Part shown: one piece after another, positions 28,700 through 38,564 of the stretch
Position numbering within the stretch: position 1 is the stretch's first letter
Layout: every line of letters starts with the position of its first letter
Source of the DNA: Gemmatimonadota bacterium
GTDB taxonomy: Bacteria; Gemmatimonadota; Gemmatimonadetes; Gemmatimonadales; Gemmatimonadaceae
Assembly (NCBI GenBank): GCA_016874035.1
Contig: VGVM01000003.1
Span: 35,322-99,321, forward strand
Direction of reading: 5' to 3'
Length of the DNA: 64,000 bases
Translations under genes and position numbers: made by a program
Notes under the pieces: generated by a model
The model's input: only the letters and a program-made list of their open reading frames with translations
Databases searched by the model: none
Told to the model about the DNA's origin: nothing

Positions 28700-31015
28700 T
28701 CAGTGCGGCCCCGCCGACCCAGTGGAGCGCTGGATGCCGCGGACGATGTCGAGCCGCAGCTCCGTCCAGCCGTCGTCCTGGAAATACTGCACCCGCAGGG
28801 AGTGCTGCCCCCCGGTCAGCGGCACGTTGTCCACCGTGGACTCGTGGTGCGTCCACCGGTCAATGACGAGCGTACCGTCCACCCAAACCCGGACTCCGTC
28901 GTCACTGATGGTGCGAAGCGTGTACTCGCCCGGCGGCAAGTCCACCGTCGTGGCCGCGTCGAGGGCCCACCGCGATTGGGGGAGTTCGCGGATGGCCGGC
29001 CGGTACCAGAAGTAGTCGAGCCGCGGAGCCCGCCGCGTGAGCATGGGCGTCCGGGAGATGGCGCGCGACGCGGCCACGCCCACGGAATCGCGCGGTGTAC
29101 TGTCGCTCCACGTGAAGAACCGCACGTTCCAGTCCTGCCGCGGCTCGAAGCGTCCATACGAAAACCGGTACGGCGTGCCGGAACTGACGGTCTGTCCCAG
29201 GGGCGTGCGTGCTGCGGTGCCGACGAACTCCAGCTCGACCGCCCAGTCGCTGGCGGCATCCGGCAGTGGAGTAACCGTCAGCGTGTCGCCCGTGGACCCA
29301 CTGGTTCGGGACAGCGTGCCGATGCCTGGCTCCTTCACGACCTGCCATCGGCCCGCCGGCCCCAGCACGCGAAGACGAAGCGGCACGGAGCGCACGCTGT
29401 CGATCGGCCAGAGTTTCGGCGACTTCCAGTCGTACGGGCCCCATTCATCCACAACCATGGCGGAGCGGTCGCGGCGCGAGGCCTCCTGACGCGGCGGCAC
29501 CCGCCGGTCCGCGGTACCCATGCGTGCGCGAATCGCCGCCGGGATTCCATTGAGCGGCGGCGCATCGCACTCGGCGCCCGCGGACGCCTTCCGCGAAAGT
29601 CCCGCGGCGCCCGGACCGGTCACCTCCATATGGAAGCGGCTCGTGTCCCGCAGCACCGCGGCCGAATCCACGCCGGTCATCCGGTTTCCGCGCGCCGTCA
29701 CTGCGACGGAGCTCAGCACGCGCAGCCCCACGCGATGCCGGGCGAACGTGTTATCCGAGATCTGGTAGTCGCGGCTCCGCGTGTCGCGGCGCTTCGGATA
29801 CATCCAGTCCGACGGCTCGATGGGGTTTGCCCAGAGGCTGATGGCGGTCGTGTCGCCAACGAACGAGTTGTCCGCGATCGCGTTTTCCTGCCCGTGCTCG
29901 ATGGCGATGCCGATCCGGTTGCGCAGGAAGCAGTTTCCGCGAATCACGGACGAGTACGAGTACCCGCCCCAGACTCCGTGGTCGTTGCCCTCGATCCGGT
30001 TGCCGATCATGTAGTTCCGGCTGAACGTGGCCTCGATCCCGTTCGTGGGCGCCCAGCTGAAGTCGTTGCCCACGAGCCAGTTGTCATTCGCGCCGCCCTC
30101 ACCGGTATCCATCGTGCTCTGTCCCGCCCAGAGGAAGAAGCCGTCGCCCCCGTGGGTGGCCGAGTTGAACGCGATGACGTTGTCGCCGCTCTGCTCGTAG
30201 AGGAGGATGCCGGCCGAGTCCTGCCCGCGACGATAGAACCCGTAACTGTAGCCGCGCACGTTGAAGTTCACCCGGTTCCGCGCGATCGTGTTGTGACTGG
30301 AGCGGTAGAGGCCGATGCCGAGCCCCGAGTTGAAGGAGAAGTCGTTGTCGGTGACGGCGACGCCCTCGGTGCGCACCATCAGCAGGGCGTTCATCCCTTG
30401 CTCCGCGCGGCTCGACCGCACGGCGCCGCCACGCACGCCATGCAGGTAGAATGCGGCCCCGAACCGCAGCCATTCATCGGCCTCATTCCGGTGAAACGAG
30501 AGCCAGTCCACGAGACTCTCGTGCTCGACCAGCGAGAAGAGGCGCGGCTTCCAGTTGTTGCTCGCGTCCACCCGCTCGATGGTCAGGTTGGTGGTGTTGC
30601 GGGCCAGGATGGCCACCTTGTAACCGCGGATGCGCGCGTTGGCGATGCGGATGTTCCGCCCACCCTCCACGCGGATTGCGATGCCGGACGCTACGTCCGG
30701 GTCGTTGGTGGCCGGCACGCCCTCGAGGGTGGCGCCGCCGAAATCCACGGTGATGTCGTTTCCGCGGATCGTGATGAGGCCGGAGTCGTGCGGGGCGTCG
30801 GCCGCGAGCCGCCAGGTGCGCCGGGCCACCCGCACGGACCGCGTGATCACCATCCCTGGCTGGAGTTCGACCTCGCGAAGCTGGGGCGGCGATGCCTGGC
30901 GCGCCACCCCCGGCTGTGCGCCCGCGCCGTCGCCGACAAGCGCACAGATCGCGCAGCACAGCAGAACCCGGGCACCGGCCGCCCGCGGGTGGGAAGCACG
31001 GGGAGGATTCGCCAT
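28700..31015 (-). CDS. Secreted right-handed beta-helix protein with C-terminal PA14-like domain
   Basis: N..I..N parallel beta-helix repeats; C-terminal YTLRTISDDGVRVWVDGTLVIDRWTHHESTVDNVPLTGGQHSLRVQYFQDDGWTELRL. Confidence 0.8.
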   Translation of the reverse strand: MANPPRASHPRAAGARVLLCCAICALVGDGAGAQPGVARQASPPQLREVELQPGMVITRSVRVARRTWRLAADAPHDSGLITIRGNDITVDFGGATLEGVPATNDPDVASGIAIRVEGGRNIRIANARIRGYKVAILARNTTNLTIERVDASNNWKPRLFSLVEHESLVDWLSFHRNEADEWLRFGAAFYLHGVRGGAVRSSRAEQGMNALLMVRTEGVAVTDNDFSFNSGLGIGLYRSSHNTIARNRVNFNVRGYSYGFYRRGQDSAGILLYEQSGDNVIAFNSATHGGDGFFLWAGQSTMDTGEGGANDNWLVGNDFSWAPTNGIEATFSRNYMIGNRIEGNDHGVWGGYSYSSVIRGNCFLRNRIGIAIEHGQENAIADNSFVGDTTAISLWANPIEPSDWMYPKRRDTRSRDYQISDNTFARHRVGLRVLSSVAVTARGNRMTGVDSAAVLRDTSRFHMEVTGPGAAGLSRKASAGAECDAPPLNGIPAAIRARMGTADRRVPPRQEASRRDRSAMVVDEWGPYDWKSPKLWPIDSVRSVPLRLRVLGPAGRWQVVKEPGIGTLSRTSGSTGDTLTVTPLPDAASDWAVELEFVGTAARTPLGQTVSSGTPYRFSYGRFEPRQDWNVRFFTWSDSTPRDSVGVAASRAISRTPMLTRRAPRLDYFWYRPAIRELPQSRWALDAATTVDLPPGEYTLRTISDDGVRVWVDGTLVIDRWTHHESTVDNVPLTGGQHSLRVQYFQDDGWTELRLDIVRGIQRSTGSAGPH

Positions 31016-31149
31016 CGAGGTTCGCTCGCGTCTCGGCATCGCATCGTCCCGCAGTGAGTGGTGACTCATGTCCAGGTCCGCGCCGCCCCGCACCGGCTGG
31101 CTCGTGACATATTACGATGACCCCATCGGCATCATCCACGCGAGCTCCA

Positions 31150-31376: not shown

Positions 31377-31853
31377 TCAGGACGAGAACCCGATCCAGCG
31401 CCCGGAAGCTGCCACGGTGAGCCACAGAAGGATGGACCCCGCGGCCACGGCCCTCGCGCGCCATACATGCGGCGGCGCGTCACGCAGCACGACAGGTTGC
31501 CGCACGAGATAGGTGAACGCGAGCGCGACCGGCAGCGTCGCCATCTTCAGCCGAAACGCGGGACTGTGGTAGCACTTCACGGCTTCGGACATGAAGAGCA
31601 GGAAACCCGTCGAAAGCATCAGCGCGACGGCGCGGTTGAGCCACGGGTGCAACCCGCGGCCCAGGGTCGCCACCGGCTGGTCGCGCAACATCACGTTGAG
31701 CAGTCGCAGGTCAACCACGAGCAACACGCCGCCGAGCAGCGAGAGACCCAGGAGGTGAACCGACTCCAGGACGGGGAAGAGCCAGGTGGAGACCCGCACC
31801 AGCTGGCCCAGCCACGACGCCTCGCACCACTCGAAGAGGGGAAGCAGGTCCAT
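31377..31853 (-). CDS. DUF6644-like integral membrane protein (paralog 1)
   Basis: 4-5 TM; shares ESxHxLxLxLxxG...DLRxL...PV..L...L.PW...TG..LF...YHS..FR.K with the next gene. Confidence 0.65.
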   Translation of the reverse strand: MDLLPLFEWCEASWLGQLVRVSTWLFPVLESVHLLGLSLLGGVLLVVDLRLLNVMLRDQPVATLGRGLHPWLNRAVALMLSTGFLLFMSEAVKCYHSPAFRLKMATLPVALAFTYLVRQPVVLRDAPPHVWRARAVAAGSILLWLTVAASGRWIGFSS

Positions 31854-31856
31854 GCG

Positions 31857-32414
31857 CTACGGAGGCGTGACCGGGCACTCCTGCAGCCAATTCACGATCG
31901 CCGACTGTGGCTGGATCGCGCACTCGAACCAGTTATACGCCACGAGACGCCCGGAGACGATCACGCCGGCCCAGGCGAGGAGCGAAATCATCGCCGCCGC
32001 ACGAGCGGCGCGCGGCGGTCGGTCGGCGTGGTCCCACGCGGCCATGCCGCGCACCGTTCGCGCGTGGAAGACGAGGATGTTCACGCCGGCGACTCCGAGC
32101 AGCAGCACCTTGATGCGGAAGAACAGGCTATGGTAATACGTGAGCGGCGTCGCGTAGAAGAGCGCCAGGCCGGTCACGACCATCACCACGAACGCAGCGC
32201 GCGTCCAGGGCAGGAGGCGCCCGGTCAAGGCCGAGACGGGAACACCGCCGAGCGCGAGGCCAAGCATGCGGAGGTCGAGCACCGCGGCTGTACCCGCGAA
32301 GAGCGCCAGCGTGAGCACGTGCGCCGATTCCGTCAGCGGCCACATGTAGAGCGACTCGTGCAGCGCGATGCTCCAGGGCGTTTCCCCCAACCATGCCAGG
32401 ACGTCTCTCAGCAC
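31857..32414 (-). CDS. DUF6644-like integral membrane protein (paralog 2)
   Basis: Same shared motif; likely GTG start (VLRDVLAWLGETPWSIALHESLYMWPLTESAHVL). Confidence 0.65.
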   Translation of the reverse strand: MLRDVLAWLGETPWSIALHESLYMWPLTESAHVLTLALFAGTAAVLDLRMLGLALGGVPVSALTGRLLPWTRAAFVVMVVTGLALFYATPLTYYHSLFFRIKVLLLGVAGVNILVFHARTVRGMAAWDHADRPPRAARAAAMISLLAWAGVIVSGRLVAYNWFECAIQPQSAIVNWLQECPVTPP

Positions 32415-32430
32415 GATGCCGGGAAGCGCG

Positions 32431-32940
32431 TCACGGTGTACGCGGCGGCTTCGTCGTCGCGGACACGGGGTACAACGGCGCGAGGTACTTGGCGTGGCAC
32501 TGCGTGCACCGGTCGTAGAGGTCCGCTCCGGTGTCAAAGATGCGTTGCCGATCGCGCGCGGCCGCGGCGTCCCTCGCGAGGGAGGCTGCCTGGATCATCT
32601 CCCGGGTGAACTTCACCCAGTCCCCGTCATCGACACGCCGGTCTTCGATCAGCAACAGGTTTCCGGCTTCCGCGATCGTCGTCGCGGCGTCGCGCACCGC
32701 CGTCCACTCCGCGTCGGTCTTCGGCGCGTGCTCGTGCGTGCCGGTCTTGTCGGTCGTCGAGCCGACGGCGGTCCAGTACCGGTCGGCCGCCGTTTCGAAT
32801 ACCTCCTCCATGAGTTGGCGCGTCGTCGCAACCTTCACGAAAGCCGGCGCACCCGAGGGCGGCGCCGGCGCGGGCTTGTTGCAGGCGGCGACGAGCAGGA
32901 TGGTCGCGCATCCCAGCAGCCGCGGCGGTCTCGCCGGCAT
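32431..32940 (-). CDS. Lipoprotein c-type cytochrome
   Basis: ATILLVAAC lipobox; single CTQCH heme motif near the C-terminus. Confidence 0.75.
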   Translation of the reverse strand: MPARPPRLLGCATILLVAACNKPAPAPPSGAPAFVKVATTRQLMEEVFETAADRYWTAVGSTTDKTGTHEHAPKTDAEWTAVRDAATTIAEAGNLLLIEDRRVDDGDWVKFTREMIQAASLARDAAAARDRQRIFDTGADLYDRCTQCHAKYLAPLYPVSATTKPPRTP

Positions 32941-34967
32941 CAGCGGGCTCGGGGCAGCGAAAAAACGACGATCGTCGGAGCTCCCGGCCTGGCGTTCGCC
33001 CAGTAGGCGGAGGGACGTCCCGAGGCGACCGCGATGTACTGTGTGCCGGCCACCTCGTATGTGACCAGCCCACCTCCGATCGCGCCGCCGGTATTGAAGC
33101 GATACAACTCCGCGCCGTTCGCGACATTGAACGCCACGAAGTCACCGCCCAGTTCACCGGCGAACGCGAGCCCGCCGGCGGTCGTCGTCGCGGCGCCGAT
33201 CATCGGCGCGCTCGACTGGTACTTCCAGCGGACCGCCCCCGTGGAGGCATCGATCGCGGTGAGCCAGCCTTTCCACGGCGAGTCCATCACCACGCGCCCG
33301 CCGAGGTAGTTCTGGCCCGGCACGAATCGCACGCTCTCGTCGAGGTAAAACGTGGTGCACCAGTCGACCGCCGGGACGACGAGGACGTTCGCGCCCGGGT
33401 GGAACGACGGGCCGTTCCATTGGACGCCACCGAAGATGCCCGGGCAGGCGTGCGTGCCCGCCGTCGTCACGGGGGCTTCCGTGTTGAGCAGCGTGGTCAC
33501 GGGCGTCTCGAACACGCGTTTCTTCGAGTCGCGGTCCACGACGCGCAGCACGCCGTCCTTCCCGGCGGTCGCGACGAGGTTCCGCATCTGTCCGCCCACG
33601 CGCGCGCGATAGAGCGGGCTCACCTGTGTGAGGTCCCAATCGTGATCGTCGTTCGGGACCATCTGGTCATACCACGCGAGCTTGCCGGTTCGCGCGTTGA
33701 GCGCGATGAGCGAGTTCGTGTAGAGGTTGATGCCGCCGCGGATGGCTTCCGGAAAGTCGGGCGCGGGATTCGCGGCCGACACGTAGAGCACATCGTTCGC
33801 CGCGTCGAGCGCCAATGGCGTCCAGACGGCGCCACCGCCCATCGGAATCTCCGGGTTCTGCTTCCACGTCTCCGACCCGGGCTCCCCGGGGGCCGGCACG
33901 ATGTTGAAGCGCCAGACGCGCTCGCCATTGTCGGTGCGAAACGCGGCGACCCAGCCCTTCACTGCGAACTCGCTGACGGCGACGCCGATGTAGAAGAGCG
34001 AATCGTAGACGAGCGGCGCCATGGTGAAGGTCTCGCCCTTCGCAGCGTCGCCGACGCGCCGCGCCCAGAGCAGCGTGCCGCTCTGCGCGTCGAGGGCGAT
34101 CAGGTACCCGTCGGTGGTGCCGCGGATCACGCGGCCGTCCTTGATCGCGACGCCGCGGTTGTTGGCGGGGATGTTGGCCGCCAGCACCGTCCACGTGTGC
34201 CGCCACTTCTGCCGGCACGTGGCCGCGTCGATGGCGATCGTGGCGGTGTGGGTCGTGAGGTACATGGTGCCGTCGTGCACTACGGGGCCGGTCTGGAACG
34301 AACCAGGCGCGTCGACCTGGTAGAGACACGCGGGCCGCAGGCTGGCCGCGTTGCCCACATTCACCTGCGAAAGCGGCGAGTACCGCGTGCCCGCGTAGTC
34401 GCGCGTATGCATCAGCCAGTCGCGGCCGCTGGCCGGTGCGTCACGCAGGTCCGCGTCGGTGGGCCCCGTTCCGCGCGGCGCGAGCCCGCCGGCGCCGCGG
34501 ATGAACTCCGGCGCCTGTCCCCGGGCGGCGAGTCCCGCGCCGCCGGCACCGGCCGCAGCCGCCGGCGAGGCGATGCGCATCGCCCTGAGCCGCGTGCCGT
34601 CGGCGGTCAGCGCCACCTCACCGGCGGTGTGCCCGTTTTGCGACAACATGTACGCCACGACCGCGAGGTACTCGTCGTCCTTCAGCGTGGCGCCCGCATT
34701 GCGCGGCATGGTGGACTTCGTGATGTAGAAGAGGTCGTCCAGGGACTTGCCCGCGGCGGACCACTTCTGCTGGAACGCGGTGCCCACGAGGGGAATGGCG
34801 ACGCCGTCGTCGAGGCGCGCCCCATGACACGACGCGCACGCCCTGGCGTACACCTCCCGGCCGGCGTCCGATTGGGCGAGCGTGAACTGCACCTGCGCCT
34901 CGGACGGCGCGGCGCAGAGCACAACGAGCACGCCGGCCGCGATGGGGGCCTTCGCGATCCGGATCAC
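32940..34967 (-). CDS. PQQ-dependent quinoprotein dehydrogenase with N-terminal cytochrome c domain
   Basis: Signal peptide; CASCH heme motif; beta-propeller WDLTQVSPLYR..., DWCTTFY, GWLTAIDASTGAVRWKYQS. Confidence 0.88.
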   Translation of the reverse strand: MIRIAKAPIAAGVLVVLCAAPSEAQVQFTLAQSDAGREVYARACASCHGARLDDGVAIPLVGTAFQQKWSAAGKSLDDLFYITKSTMPRNAGATLKDDEYLAVVAYMLSQNGHTAGEVALTADGTRLRAMRIASPAAAAGAGGAGLAARGQAPEFIRGAGGLAPRGTGPTDADLRDAPASGRDWLMHTRDYAGTRYSPLSQVNVGNAASLRPACLYQVDAPGSFQTGPVVHDGTMYLTTHTATIAIDAATCRQKWRHTWTVLAANIPANNRGVAIKDGRVIRGTTDGYLIALDAQSGTLLWARRVGDAAKGETFTMAPLVYDSLFYIGVAVSEFAVKGWVAAFRTDNGERVWRFNIVPAPGEPGSETWKQNPEIPMGGGAVWTPLALDAANDVLYVSAANPAPDFPEAIRGGINLYTNSLIALNARTGKLAWYDQMVPNDDHDWDLTQVSPLYRARVGGQMRNLVATAGKDGVLRVVDRDSKKRVFETPVTTLLNTEAPVTTAGTHACPGIFGGVQWNGPSFHPGANVLVVPAVDWCTTFYLDESVRFVPGQNYLGGRVVMDSPWKGWLTAIDASTGAVRWKYQSSAPMIGAATTTAGGLAFAGELGGDFVAFNVANGAELYRFNTGGAIGGGLVTYEVAGTQYIAVASGRPSAYWANARPGAPTIVVFSLPRAR

Positions 34968-35449
34968 TGGATTAGCGCCCCTCCCGGGGGCTTCTTCGCC
35001 GCCGGGGGTGTCGGCGGTTCCGTGGGGTCGCGCCCGTCGCGGGGCGCGCCCGTGCCCGACGATCCCATGAAGATCTTGCGTCCGTCCGCAAAGGTGATGT
35101 TGCGGCCGTTGGCGCGCTTCAGCGAATGGTCCTTCGTCTGGTATCCGTCGACGATGATCTCGGTGCCGTACGCAAGCGACTCACGCTTCAGGCCGCGACG
35201 CAGGAGGGTGTTCGGCGTTCCGCCCTCTACCATCCAGACCTCCTTCGCGCCGGCCTGGTTGACGTGCTCCAGGTGAATCCACGTGTGCGGGTTCACCCAC
35301 TCGAGCTTCACGACCTTCCCCTGCAGGCGCAGTGGCGCATTCGGGTCGAACTCGGCGCCGAAGGCGTGGTGTGCATTGAGCGGGGCGCTCGGAACGAGGA
35401 GCAGCGCGGCCGCGATCACGAGCGCGAATGTTCGACGCATGACAGTCAC
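34964..35449 (-). CDS. Secreted DUF6152-like protein
   Basis: Signal peptide; HHAFGAEFDPNAPLRLQGKVVKLEWVNPHTWIHLE. Confidence 0.7.
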   Translation of the reverse strand: MTVMRRTFALVIAAALLLVPSAPLNAHHAFGAEFDPNAPLRLQGKVVKLEWVNPHTWIHLEHVNQAGAKEVWMVEGGTPNTLLRRGLKRESLAYGTEIIVDGYQTKDHSLKRANGRNITFADGRKIFMGSSGTGAPRDGRDPTEPPTPPAAKKPPGGALIQ

Positions 35450-36546
35450 TCCTTGGGATTGGGCTTTTTCACGGCGGACGAGTCGCGCTCCATCGCGCGC
35501 GCGCCGCTCAGGATGTTCGACAACGCGTAGTTGCCTTCATGACAGGCGTACTCGTAGATCTGTTCGTCCATCCTGATCATCGGGAGTTCCCCGCTCCACG
35601 GCGCCGTGAAGTTGAGCGGGTCGTTCACGGTGAAGCGGTAGAGGATCACGTTGGGGCGGGTGAGGTGAAACCGTTCGGTCACGCGAAGGCTGTCGGTGGC
35701 GCCGAACGCGGCATTCAGGAAGACGCTCTGCGACAGCACCTGCAGCGGGTGGACGTTCGAGGTCTCCACCACGAGGGTGTCGCCTTCCCACCGCCCCCAC
35801 GACACGCCCATCCACGGCCGCACGTCAGTTGACGTCGGCGTGGGCCTTCCCATCCGGATGGTCCGCACGTCATGGACCATCTCCGTCATGATCATGACGT
35901 GGTCCTTCGTCTGGACGATGGTGTAGTTGTTGTTGTAGAACGCATTGGGAATCATCGGCGGGCCCGCGTTCGAACCGAAGGACATGAGGCAGCGCTCGGC
36001 GAGCGGACGATTCTCGGGGTTGTCGTACTGGCCGAACCCGCGGTTCCGCGCGGCGCGCTGCTGCGCCCACGCGCGAGCCGCCGGCGTCAGCGCCGGCAAG
36101 CGACCATTGGCGGGGCTCACGATGATGGAACTGCGGAACTCGCCGTTCACGAAGGCAACGTGGTCGCCGGCGTCAATGAAGAAGTAGTTGTAACCGCCAA
36201 CGTTTCCAGCGGCGCCCGTGGAGCCGTCCCCCCCCTTGGGCGGCGGCGGCCGGTTCGGATCGATCGCCCGGTCGCCCGATTCCTTGACGTCAGCGCGCCC
36301 CTTCTCGAGTGCAGCCGCCTGCTCACGCGTGAGGGCGCGCGCCTGGCCGGCGGCGCGTTCGAGAGGCGTCATGGTCGCGTTCGACCAGTTGCCCTGAAGG
36401 TCGGGGCGGCCGTCGGGAGTGCGGGGCAGCGTGCTCGCGGGCCGCGCCGCCGTCGCGCGCGCCGGCGCCTGCGCTGCCGCGTGGTTCGCCGTCGCCAGCA
36501 GGACGAGTCCGGCAAGGGCGCTGAAGCTGGCTCGGTGGATCGGCAT
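35446..36546 (-). CDS. Secreted protein of the PDLxGxW / GRWEGDTLVV type
   Basis: Signal peptide; RTPDGRPDLQGNWSN; WGRWEGDTLVVETSNVHP; FTAPWSGELPM. Confidence 0.6.
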   Translation of the reverse strand: MPIHRASFSALAGLVLLATANHAAAQAPARATAARPASTLPRTPDGRPDLQGNWSNATMTPLERAAGQARALTREQAAALEKGRADVKESGDRAIDPNRPPPPKGGDGSTGAAGNVGGYNYFFIDAGDHVAFVNGEFRSSIIVSPANGRLPALTPAARAWAQQRAARNRGFGQYDNPENRPLAERCLMSFGSNAGPPMIPNAFYNNNYTIVQTKDHVMIMTEMVHDVRTIRMGRPTPTSTDVRPWMGVSWGRWEGDTLVVETSNVHPLQVLSQSVFLNAAFGATDSLRVTERFHLTRPNVILYRFTVNDPLNFTAPWSGELPMIRMDEQIYEYACHEGNYALSNILSGARAMERDSSAVKKPNPKE

Positions 36547-36554
36547 GAGAATCC

Positions 36555-38564
36555 TCACGGCTTGGCGGGAGGGGGTGTCGTGACCGGACGTTTGCGCAGG
36601 TGACCGTACAACAGTTCCTCGACAAACTCGACGCACTTGAACTGGCCGAGCCGCGCGTCGGGGTCCACGTCGCGATAGAGGGTCGTGCGGATTGTCCAGG
36701 GTCGGGTGAAGGTCTGGGGATCCTCCATCGTCGCTTCGTAGCGGATGTGATCGGGACCCGCCATCGTCCAGCGCTCGGTCACCTTGAGCGCCTCGGAGTG
36801 ATGGTTGCCTGCGCGGTCGAACCAGGTTTCCGCGTTGAATCCGCTCACCGCGACGACAAAGGTGTCACCCTCCCACCGGCCGACGGACTGGCCCATCCAG
36901 CTGTCCACTTCCGGGGGACCGGGATCCTTCAACAGGATGTTGCGGGTGGCACCCGCGTATTCATATGAGATGAAGAACGCCGACGTGCTCTGGAACACCT
37001 GGAACGGAAAGGGCATGTAATTCGCGCGCGGCACTCCCGGCAGGTAGCACTTGATCTCGGGGTCGCGCGAGAGCCAGTTGGCACGATTCTCGTTCCGCCT
37101 GGCGAGCGCAGCCGGCGTGTAGGGAATCTTCCCGCCGCCGACGATCCCGCGTCCTGATGGCACAGATCCCACGGCGCCGAGCGCCACAACCTCAGCCGCG
37201 GGAACCGGCACGACGGGTCCCTCGCGCCACGCCAACGCGCCACGCGCATTGTGCGGCTCGATGTCGTAGTGGTCGTTGCCGAATGCGCGCCAGATCCCGT
37301 TCATGTCCGGCTTGCCGTTCGAGAGGCGCGGGACGCCGCGCGCGGGCTGCATTGCCGGGGGGAGCCCAGCCGGCCTCGCCGCGGGCCGTGCGGCGGGTGC
37401 CTTGAACGCCGATGCTTGTCTGGCGACCACGGAGAGGAGGTCGCCCATCGTGGCGCTCATATCCACCAAGTGCATGCCCCACTGCGCCCGGGTCGCCGTC
37501 CCGGGCGCGCCCATGTCGCCCGGTATGTCGTCGGCGCGGGGGTCGGCGGGATCGCCGTGCACGGTGAGCACCAGCCGCGAGCCGAGGGAATCGGCCACGC
37601 ACTCGCCACTGACGAGGCCGGGAACGCTCACGAACTGCGTCGTGACCTGCGGATCCGTGCGCACCCACCGGTACGCCGTCGTCGCCGTGCGCTCGAAGAT
37701 GCTCGGCGCCGCGCTGAAGTAGCTGTGGAGGCCGCGACTGCCACCGGACAGGGCGGCGGGATTCGTGCACGCGGCCTGCATGCCCGGCGTGGTCACGCGC
37801 CCGAACAATGCGCGGCCGGACGGAGGCACGGTACTGCGAAACGAGACGAACGAAACGACACAACCCGTCTGGCCATCTCGCCGGCAGAGCGGCATCGACT
37901 GGAACGAGCCGCCGAGATCCTTGCCGACCGGCACGGGAATGTTGGCGCCGATGAGGAGCGCGGAGACGACCAGCGATTGCGCCGACTTGCCGTCGATCTC
38001 CCACCGGATGAGTTCGTCAAGGAGGTACGCTCCCTGCGAGTGCCCGATGAGGACGACGCCGCGGCCCTTGTTGTCGTTGGCGAGGTAATGGTTCCATGCG
38101 GCGAGCACGTCGTCATAGTTCGTGCCGCGGCTCATCGAGATGCCGCTGTTCGGCGAGCTGAACATCCGGCCGAGGCCGGCAACGGTCACCTGTCGATAGA
38201 GGGGCGCAAACCGACGGCAGATGGAACCGAAGCGTGCAAACTGTGATCGTACGACGTCCCGCTCTTCATCGCCGGCCTGCATGTCGCTGTACGTGCCGGT
38301 GTCGCGCGAAACGGTCGGATAGACATAGAAGCAGTCGACGGCCGGCGCGGCTGTCGCGGCCCACCGTTCGGCCTTGCGGGTGCCGTCCGCCGAGAGGATC
38401 GTCGTCGAGAGATCGACGGAACAGGCATCGGTGCGGCCCGGCCGGCAGAGCCACGCCTCGGGTCTGGCGTACGACACGGAATCCTGCGCGAACACCGCGA
38501 CCGACGCGAAGACGAGGATCATCGGGGCGTGGGGATGATGGGGGGGGCGTGCCCGTTGCTGCAT
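36555..38564 (-). CDS. Secreted fusion: DUF3089 alpha/beta-hydrolase-like domain plus PDLxGxW-type domain
   Basis: N-terminal PEAWLCRPGRTDACSVDLSTTIL... with GHSQGAYLL; C-terminal LSNGKPDMNGIWRAF...VGRWEGDTFVVAVSGFN...FTRPWTIRTTLYRD. Confidence 0.65.
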   Translation of the reverse strand: MQQRARPPHHPHAPMILVFASVAVFAQDSVSYARPEAWLCRPGRTDACSVDLSTTILSADGTRKAERWAATAAPAVDCFYVYPTVSRDTGTYSDMQAGDEERDVVRSQFARFGSICRRFAPLYRQVTVAGLGRMFSSPNSGISMSRGTNYDDVLAAWNHYLANDNKGRGVVLIGHSQGAYLLDELIRWEIDGKSAQSLVVSALLIGANIPVPVGKDLGGSFQSMPLCRRDGQTGCVVSFVSFRSTVPPSGRALFGRVTTPGMQAACTNPAALSGGSRGLHSYFSAAPSIFERTATTAYRWVRTDPQVTTQFVSVPGLVSGECVADSLGSRLVLTVHGDPADPRADDIPGDMGAPGTATRAQWGMHLVDMSATMGDLLSVVARQASAFKAPAARPAARPAGLPPAMQPARGVPRLSNGKPDMNGIWRAFGNDHYDIEPHNARGALAWREGPVVPVPAAEVVALGAVGSVPSGRGIVGGGKIPYTPAALARRNENRANWLSRDPEIKCYLPGVPRANYMPFPFQVFQSTSAFFISYEYAGATRNILLKDPGPPEVDSWMGQSVGRWEGDTFVVAVSGFNAETWFDRAGNHHSEALKVTERWTMAGPDHIRYEATMEDPQTFTRPWTIRTTLYRDVDPDARLGQFKCVEFVEELLYGHLRKRPVTTPPPAKP

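Follow-up and report, generated by a model that had tools for sequence, protein, structure and literature searches.

The stretch of DNA examined here (the window) comprises 64,000 nucleotides of contig VGVM01000003.1 (C3) from a Gemmatimonadota bacterium whose 3.08 Mb assembly, GCA_016874035.1, is 99.5% complete. Seven minus-strand genes between positions 31377 and 38564 encode, from 5' to 3', a DUF3089 hydrolase fused to a PDLxGxW protein (PDL2), a second PDLxGxW protein (PDL1), a DUF6152 protein, a pyrroloquinoline quinone (PQQ) family quinoprotein, a cytochrome c lipoprotein and the membrane proteins DUF6644-B and DUF6644-A (Table 1). We found that six of these elements, PDL2-PDL1-DUF6152 and the cytochrome lipoprotein with the DUF6644 pair, form a recurrent core, and that the quinoprotein and the hydrolase are exchangeable partners drawn from several families. 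The operon can be read as an extracytoplasmic oxidation system that joins ester hydrolysis, alcohol oxidation and electron flow to the DUF6644 pair, a reading that we regard as evenly poised between right and wrong. An earlier note on this DNA had described the seven open reading frames as packed with overlaps of 1-4 bp or gaps of 16 bp or less and had ascribed a signal peptide, a lipobox or transmembrane segments to each product. Each frame lies where that note had placed it, the junctions agree, and the products, as judged from hydropathy and sequence alone, have signal-like or transmembrane segments.

Table 1. The seven linked genes of the window, listed 5' to 3' on the minus strand
Gene product	Position	Strand	Supporting features	Junction with the next gene
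DUF3089-PDL2 fusion	36555..38564	-	PF11288, 160 bits; GHSQG; PDL2 relatives in GTDB genomes	8 bp gap (end 36555 to PDL1 ATG 36546)
PDL1, second PDLxGxW protein	35446..36546	-	ATG 36546 (an alternative earlier start, GTG 36636, would give an overlap with DUF3089-PDL2); signal-like N-terminus; homologous to PDL2	4 bp overlap
DUF6152 protein	34964..35449	-	PF19649, 98 bits; predicted mature N-terminus HHAF; OB-fold model	4 bp overlap
Quinohemoprotein, N-terminal heme c and PQQ beta-propeller	32940..34967	-	PF13442, PF01011	1 bp overlap
Cytochrome c lipoprotein	32431..32940	-	Lipobox Cys20; CTQCH 145-149; invariant Met44; weak PF01322	16 bp gap from end 32431 if GTG 32414, the most likely start, is used
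DUF6644-B membrane protein	31857..32414	-	PF20349, 45 bits; probable GTG start 32414	3 bp spacing
DUF6644-A membrane protein	31377..31853	-	PF20349, 113 bits	

The families of the core recur together in many genomes far beyond chance, and most of the set is shared by hundreds of soil and aquatic bacteria. Of 149 genomes in the source organism's class, 45 have DUF6644; DUF6152 is found in 41, every one of which has DUF6644 as well (Fisher P = 1.7e-32). The two families share a contig in 38 class genomes, with a median gap of 449 bp, and lie within 3 kb of one another in 37. When GTDB species genomes were scanned with the PDL2 alignment, 550 stretches that encode relatives were detected; locus counts given here refer to the best 80, several of which lie on contigs too short to hold the whole set. 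PDL1 is found at 72 of these loci, DUF6152 at 69, DUF6644-A and DUF6644-B at 62 each and the cytochrome at 55. In the relatives a PDL2-PDL1-DUF6152 block usually faces a DUF6644A-DUF6644B-cytochrome block on the opposite strand; the arrangement with all seven genes on one strand and the quinoprotein between the two blocks was seen only in the window. The earlier note had named in advance two findings that would tell against it, rare co-occurrence of the families and a lack of PQQ-binding or catalytic residues in the quinoprotein; the families do co-occur, and because the active-site residues are kept (see below) the second objection falls away as well. What stands of that interpretation is a system that is coupled, recurrent and extracytoplasmic, whose quinoprotein has a complete active site and which also includes a hydrolase and two heme c modules.

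By record titles, which may be wrong for metagenome bins, most of the loci belong to Gemmatimonadota, with others in Acidobacteriota, in Pseudomonadota (Steroidobacter, Phenylobacterium and unclassified Gammaproteobacteria) and in single Cyanobacteria and Acidimicrobiia bins. Within the family of the source organism PDL2 has a match in nine of 179 genomes, which, leaving out the source genome and one weak match, gives seven genomes from two genera that have strong orthologues and carry the core; there is none in the 17 listed congeners of that survey. A complete window-type quinoprotein accompanies four of the seven (L201, L203, L205 and L206; 1e-233 or better), the copy in L202 is truncated at the edge of its contig, the L204 stretch is too short to judge, and none was found in the stretch of L200 that was read. 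The DUF3089-PDL2 fusion is present in L200, L204 and L205 too. This patchy distribution suggests acquisition or loss, and transfer may have contributed; the window is weakly placed in the PDL2 tree, and PDL2-like genes are rare on plasmids (six records, all below 60% identity).

Parts of the core are also found in other company. PDL2 and PDL1 occur at six loci without DUF6152 or DUF6644, so the PDL pair also exists outside the core, and all six (L132, L130, L137, L139, L143 and L144) share another conserved gene, of the family of L130:4754-5890. PDL and DUF6152 likewise form a two-gene unit elsewhere, including contig C52 of the source genome (L006:731-1857), where another PDLxGxW gene is followed at once, with a 4 bp overlap, by a second DUF6152 gene.

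As for the surroundings of the operon, the contig belongs to the genus, since the adjacent lpd gene shares 85-91% identity with its counterparts in the congeners. An origin by simple insertion beside lpd was considered and is not demonstrable: the congeners carry different genes there, and in genome G152 the segment next to this flank has the opposite orientation to that in the window. The operon is followed directly downstream (positions 28700-31093) by a gene for a protein of 797 residues, which has NosD/right-handed beta-helix repeats and, at its C-terminus, a PA14 domain. Just to the left of the window (contig C3:30075-34839) is another PQQ-family quinoprotein (PF01011, 515 bits), close to a beta-lactamase-fold hydrolase.

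Partners of the core were counted within a margin of 6 kb at the 80 loci, which represent 47 non-redundant groups. A quinoprotein is present at 29 loci (14 groups), a figure in which quinoproteins are counted apart from beta-lactamase-fold genes, as a cluster of 36 loci mixed the two owing to a fusion. With about 8 PF01011 genes in the 3.1 Mb source genome, about 0.05 would be expected per 20 kb. A beta-lactamase-fold hydrolase is found at 41 loci (18 groups), where it often abuts the cytochrome gene, while DUF3089 occurs at four loci and a PETase-like hydrolase at one. At least three types of quinoprotein stand beside the same core, namely the window type, a methanol/ethanol type and a glucose/quinate-like type. 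In Longimicrobiales the methanol/ethanol type has vicinal cysteines and is fused to a beta-lactamase-fold domain that resembles methyl acetate hydrolase. A protein of 973 residues at L103:14339-17260 is a fusion of this kind. At a locus in Steroidobacter agaridevorans (L127:8394-9587) an aldose-1-epimerase-family lipoprotein precedes PDL2, a hint of a possible sugar-related substrate there.

A different reading makes the core an oxidoreductase in its own right, which would act on a ligand inside the PDL barrels while its membrane pair gives or takes electrons, and treats the quinoprotein and the hydrolase as accessories of related pathways. The core does persist at many loci with no quinoprotein or hydrolase within 6 kb, those of Steroidobacter included, and the two-gene PDL and DUF6152 units found elsewhere also speak for this reading. 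On the other hand, three quinoprotein types recur beside the core at well above their genome-wide density, and the core contains no recognisable catalytic family. We think this reading unlikely, though it deserves serious weight.

The quinoprotein of the window combines a PQQ propeller (PF01011) with a Cytochrome_CBB3 domain (PF13442), the latter N-terminal and bearing the heme motif CASCH at residues 44-48. Compared with its nearest solved relative, 1kv9, it keeps Arg271, Glu333, Trp382, Asn400, Asp440, Lys470 and Trp517, as do the window-type orthologues; these include the residues typical of TIGR03075, that is, the calcium ligands (Glu333 and Asn400), the catalytic Asp440, Lys470, Trp382 and Trp517. 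In the fusion protein the DUF3089 alpha/beta-hydrolase domain spans residues ~76-273 (159.6 bits to PF11288, cut-off 23.4) and has its nucleophile motif, GHSQG, at 174.

The supply of PQQ bears on a second alternative, that the quinoprotein is 'empty': a PQQ-free propeller with a structural or binding role that carries out no PQQ-dependent oxidation. Its second-best NCBIfam match is TIGR04528, the acido-empty-quinoprotein group A, a name that implies a host without PQQ biosynthesis. The source genome fits that description for the genes pqqC and pqqE: pqqC has no match above the curated cut-off there or in 44 of the 45 class genomes with DUF6644, and pqqE has none over the cut-off in the source genome. 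The depletion of pqqC in core-bearing genomes is not significant (1/45 vs 9/104, P = 0.28). Vicinal cysteines are also absent from the window protein. Against an empty propeller, the TIGR04528 score is 318.6 bits where the cut-off is 650, the calcium ligands and the catalytic Asp, Lys and Trp residues are kept, and contig C59 of the source genome (5244-7211; L157) encodes a homologue of the importer PqqU (30% identity, E = 1.6e-66) with Phe99, Arg304 and Arg365 as well as Lys274, Gln121 and Arg536. The first three residues (F99/R304/R365) are the published PqqU signature, import without synthesis is common, PqqU has been reported in 183 Gemmatimonadetes, and PQQ synthesis is found in only 23% of PqqU producers (PMC12124388). 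The conserved ligands and the PqqU homologue set the empty reading back, and we consider it improbable. Given these figures, the importer and the lack of pqqC and pqqE over cut-off, imported PQQ is the simplest reading, and uptake via the PqqU-like transporter, a point that the earlier note had not considered, is likely.

Two modules, the lipoprotein and the DUF6644 pair, would receive the electrons. The lipoprotein has an invariant Cys20, Met44 and CXXCH. Its score to PF01322 is 18.6 bits, below the cut-off of 26.5, with weak matches in nine of 23 members, and its profile matches solved cytochromes c' weakly (E = 0.004) and in the C-terminal segment only. With these features it probably belongs to the class II cytochromes c, and Met44 may be a heme axial ligand of the c-556 kind. 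The DUF6644 assignments are firm (PF20349; 113.3 bits for A and 45.3 for B, cut-off 27). The two proteins are homologous and each has one invariant histidine, His33 of A aligning with His29 of B; a heme or quinone site common to both is a matter for speculation.

The remaining core proteins may handle ligands. PDL1 and the PDL2 domain (residues ~410-669 of the fusion) belong to no Pfam or NCBIfam family and have no match in PHROGs, and searches of PDB sequences with the PDL, DUF6152 and DUF6644 profiles gave nothing significant. Cysteines 121 and 259 (PDL2 numbering) are invariant across PDL1 and PDL2. The PDL2 model is beta-barrel-like (predicted local distance difference test score, pLDDT, 79.6), with weak matches to calycins (best Foldseek E = 2.8e-3; target-normalised template modelling score about 0.5); such a fold would be compatible with the binding of a hydrophobic ligand. 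DUF6152 (PF19649, 98.1 bits, cut-off 27) models well as an OB fold (AlphaFold2 mean pLDDT 83; top Foldseek matches are OB-fold proteins, E about 2e-3). The first two histidines of its predicted mature N-terminus and the histidine of NPH29 are invariant in 35 sequences, down to ~25% identity, a hint that the protein binds a metal or a ligand. Fungal PQQ pyranose dehydrogenases have been proposed to feed electrons to lytic polysaccharide monooxygenases, and DUF6152 might likewise be a copper protein, with a histidine-brace-like N-terminal site supplied by the quinoprotein and cytochromes for oxidative attack on a polymer. A histidine brace consists of an N-terminal His and one further His (PMC10952591), which the His-His right after the likely cleavage site and the NPH histidine could provide, but the model puts NPH29 in the turn that joins strands one and two and His1 before a first strand of 19 residues, so that their pairing within a single chain looks unlikely; there is, besides, no homology to known brace proteins, and we regard this reading as very improbable.

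In the extracytoplasmic oxidation system that we favour, the DUF3089 hydrolase, replaced elsewhere by a beta-lactamase-fold or PETase-like enzyme, would cleave an ester; the esterified compound may be hydrophobic or polymeric and held by the PDL proteins. The quinoprotein, loaded with PQQ from the PqqU-like importer, would oxidise the released alcohol. Electrons would then pass from PQQ to the heme of the same chain, to the class II cytochrome lipoprotein and to the DUF6644 pair, from which they may enter the membrane quinone pool or the respiratory chain; DUF6152 could be an electron-transfer or metal-binding accessory. The core by itself, leaving aside the quinoprotein and the hydrolase, would serve as a generic outlet for different plug-in quinoproteins. 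We propose more tentatively, as a possibility about which we have real doubts, that the DUF6644 pair, class II cytochrome lipoprotein, DUF6152 and PDL proteins make up a new transferable complex for quinoprotein-to-membrane electron transfer and substrate handling, which would serve at least three quinoprotein types and their attached esterases in Gemmatimonadota, Acidobacteriota and Pseudomonadota.

Several observations weigh against the oxidation system that we favour. The vicinal Cys-Cys before NRG is missing from five window-type relatives as well as from the window quinoprotein, whose score to TIGR03075 (PQQ-dependent alcohol dehydrogenase) is 354.7 bits, below the cut-off of 480. The searches used picked up no quinoprotein inside the 6 kb margin at more than half of the 80 loci, so quinoproteins may not be all that the core serves. 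Beta-lactamase-fold genes are abundant in some relatives, at 8-57 per genome in the seven genomes counted, and with a background of about 8 genes the enrichment of quinoproteins is the stronger of the two. Each DUF6644 chain offers one invariant membrane histidine and not the usual bis-His heme pair, and the PqqU alignment is gapped near two signature positions, 304 and 365. The recurrence of the core, the conservation of the active site and the exchange of partners are observed; the substrate, the direction of electron flow and the roles of the DUF6644, DUF6152 and PDL proteins are inferred.

In the open literature we found no paper that mentions DUF6644, DUF6152 or empty-quinoprotein. Within the literature searched the module is undescribed; it is real and widespread, and it joins known chemistry to three families of no known function. 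DUF6644, DUF6152 and the PDLxGxW proteins are thereby linked to a single extracytoplasmic redox system that recurs in many genomes of poorly cultured phyla, and each acquires a testable role. Steroidobacter isolates hold most of the core, which makes genetics possible. If our reading is right, the system gives periplasmic quinoproteins an electron outlet not known before and offers a possible route of ester or polymer breakdown in bacteria that apparently import PQQ and do not make it.

Several parts of the system can be compared with known systems. The supply of the cofactor resembles PqqU-dependent scavenging (PMC12124388) in the lack of synthesis by the genes searched and in the signature residues of the PqqU homologue, its gene lying here outside the operon. 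The type II quinohemoprotein alcohol dehydrogenase ADH-IIB of Pseudomonas (1kv9) shares with the window quinoprotein a PQQ propeller, calcium ligands, catalytic Asp, Lys and Trp residues and a heme c in the same chain, but its heme domain is C-terminal instead of N-terminal, and the window protein differs in lacking the vicinal cysteines and in a propeller that scores below the TIGR03075 cut-off. Polyvinyl alcohol (PVA) is degraded by a periplasmic PQQ dehydrogenase with cytochrome c and a serine hydrolase, the oxidised-PVA hydrolase. The window system may work in a similar way, a likeness drawn from descriptions and not from sequences; to our knowledge DUF6644, DUF6152 and PDL proteins are not parts of the PVA system. 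Class II cytochromes c (c' and c-556) have a C-terminal CXXCH in the segment that corresponds to that of the window protein, whose Met44 is suggestive of a c-556-like ligand; the window protein is unlike them in being a lipoprotein, and its match is limited to the C-terminal segment and falls below the Pfam cut-off. The fusion of Longimicrobiales, which scores 200.8 to AcmB (methyl acetate hydrolase) against a cut-off of 550, differs from the window proteins in its vicinal cysteines, in having no detected heme domain and in its beta-lactamase fold in place of DUF3089, but it adjoins the same core and would let a single polypeptide both hydrolyse esters and oxidise alcohols.

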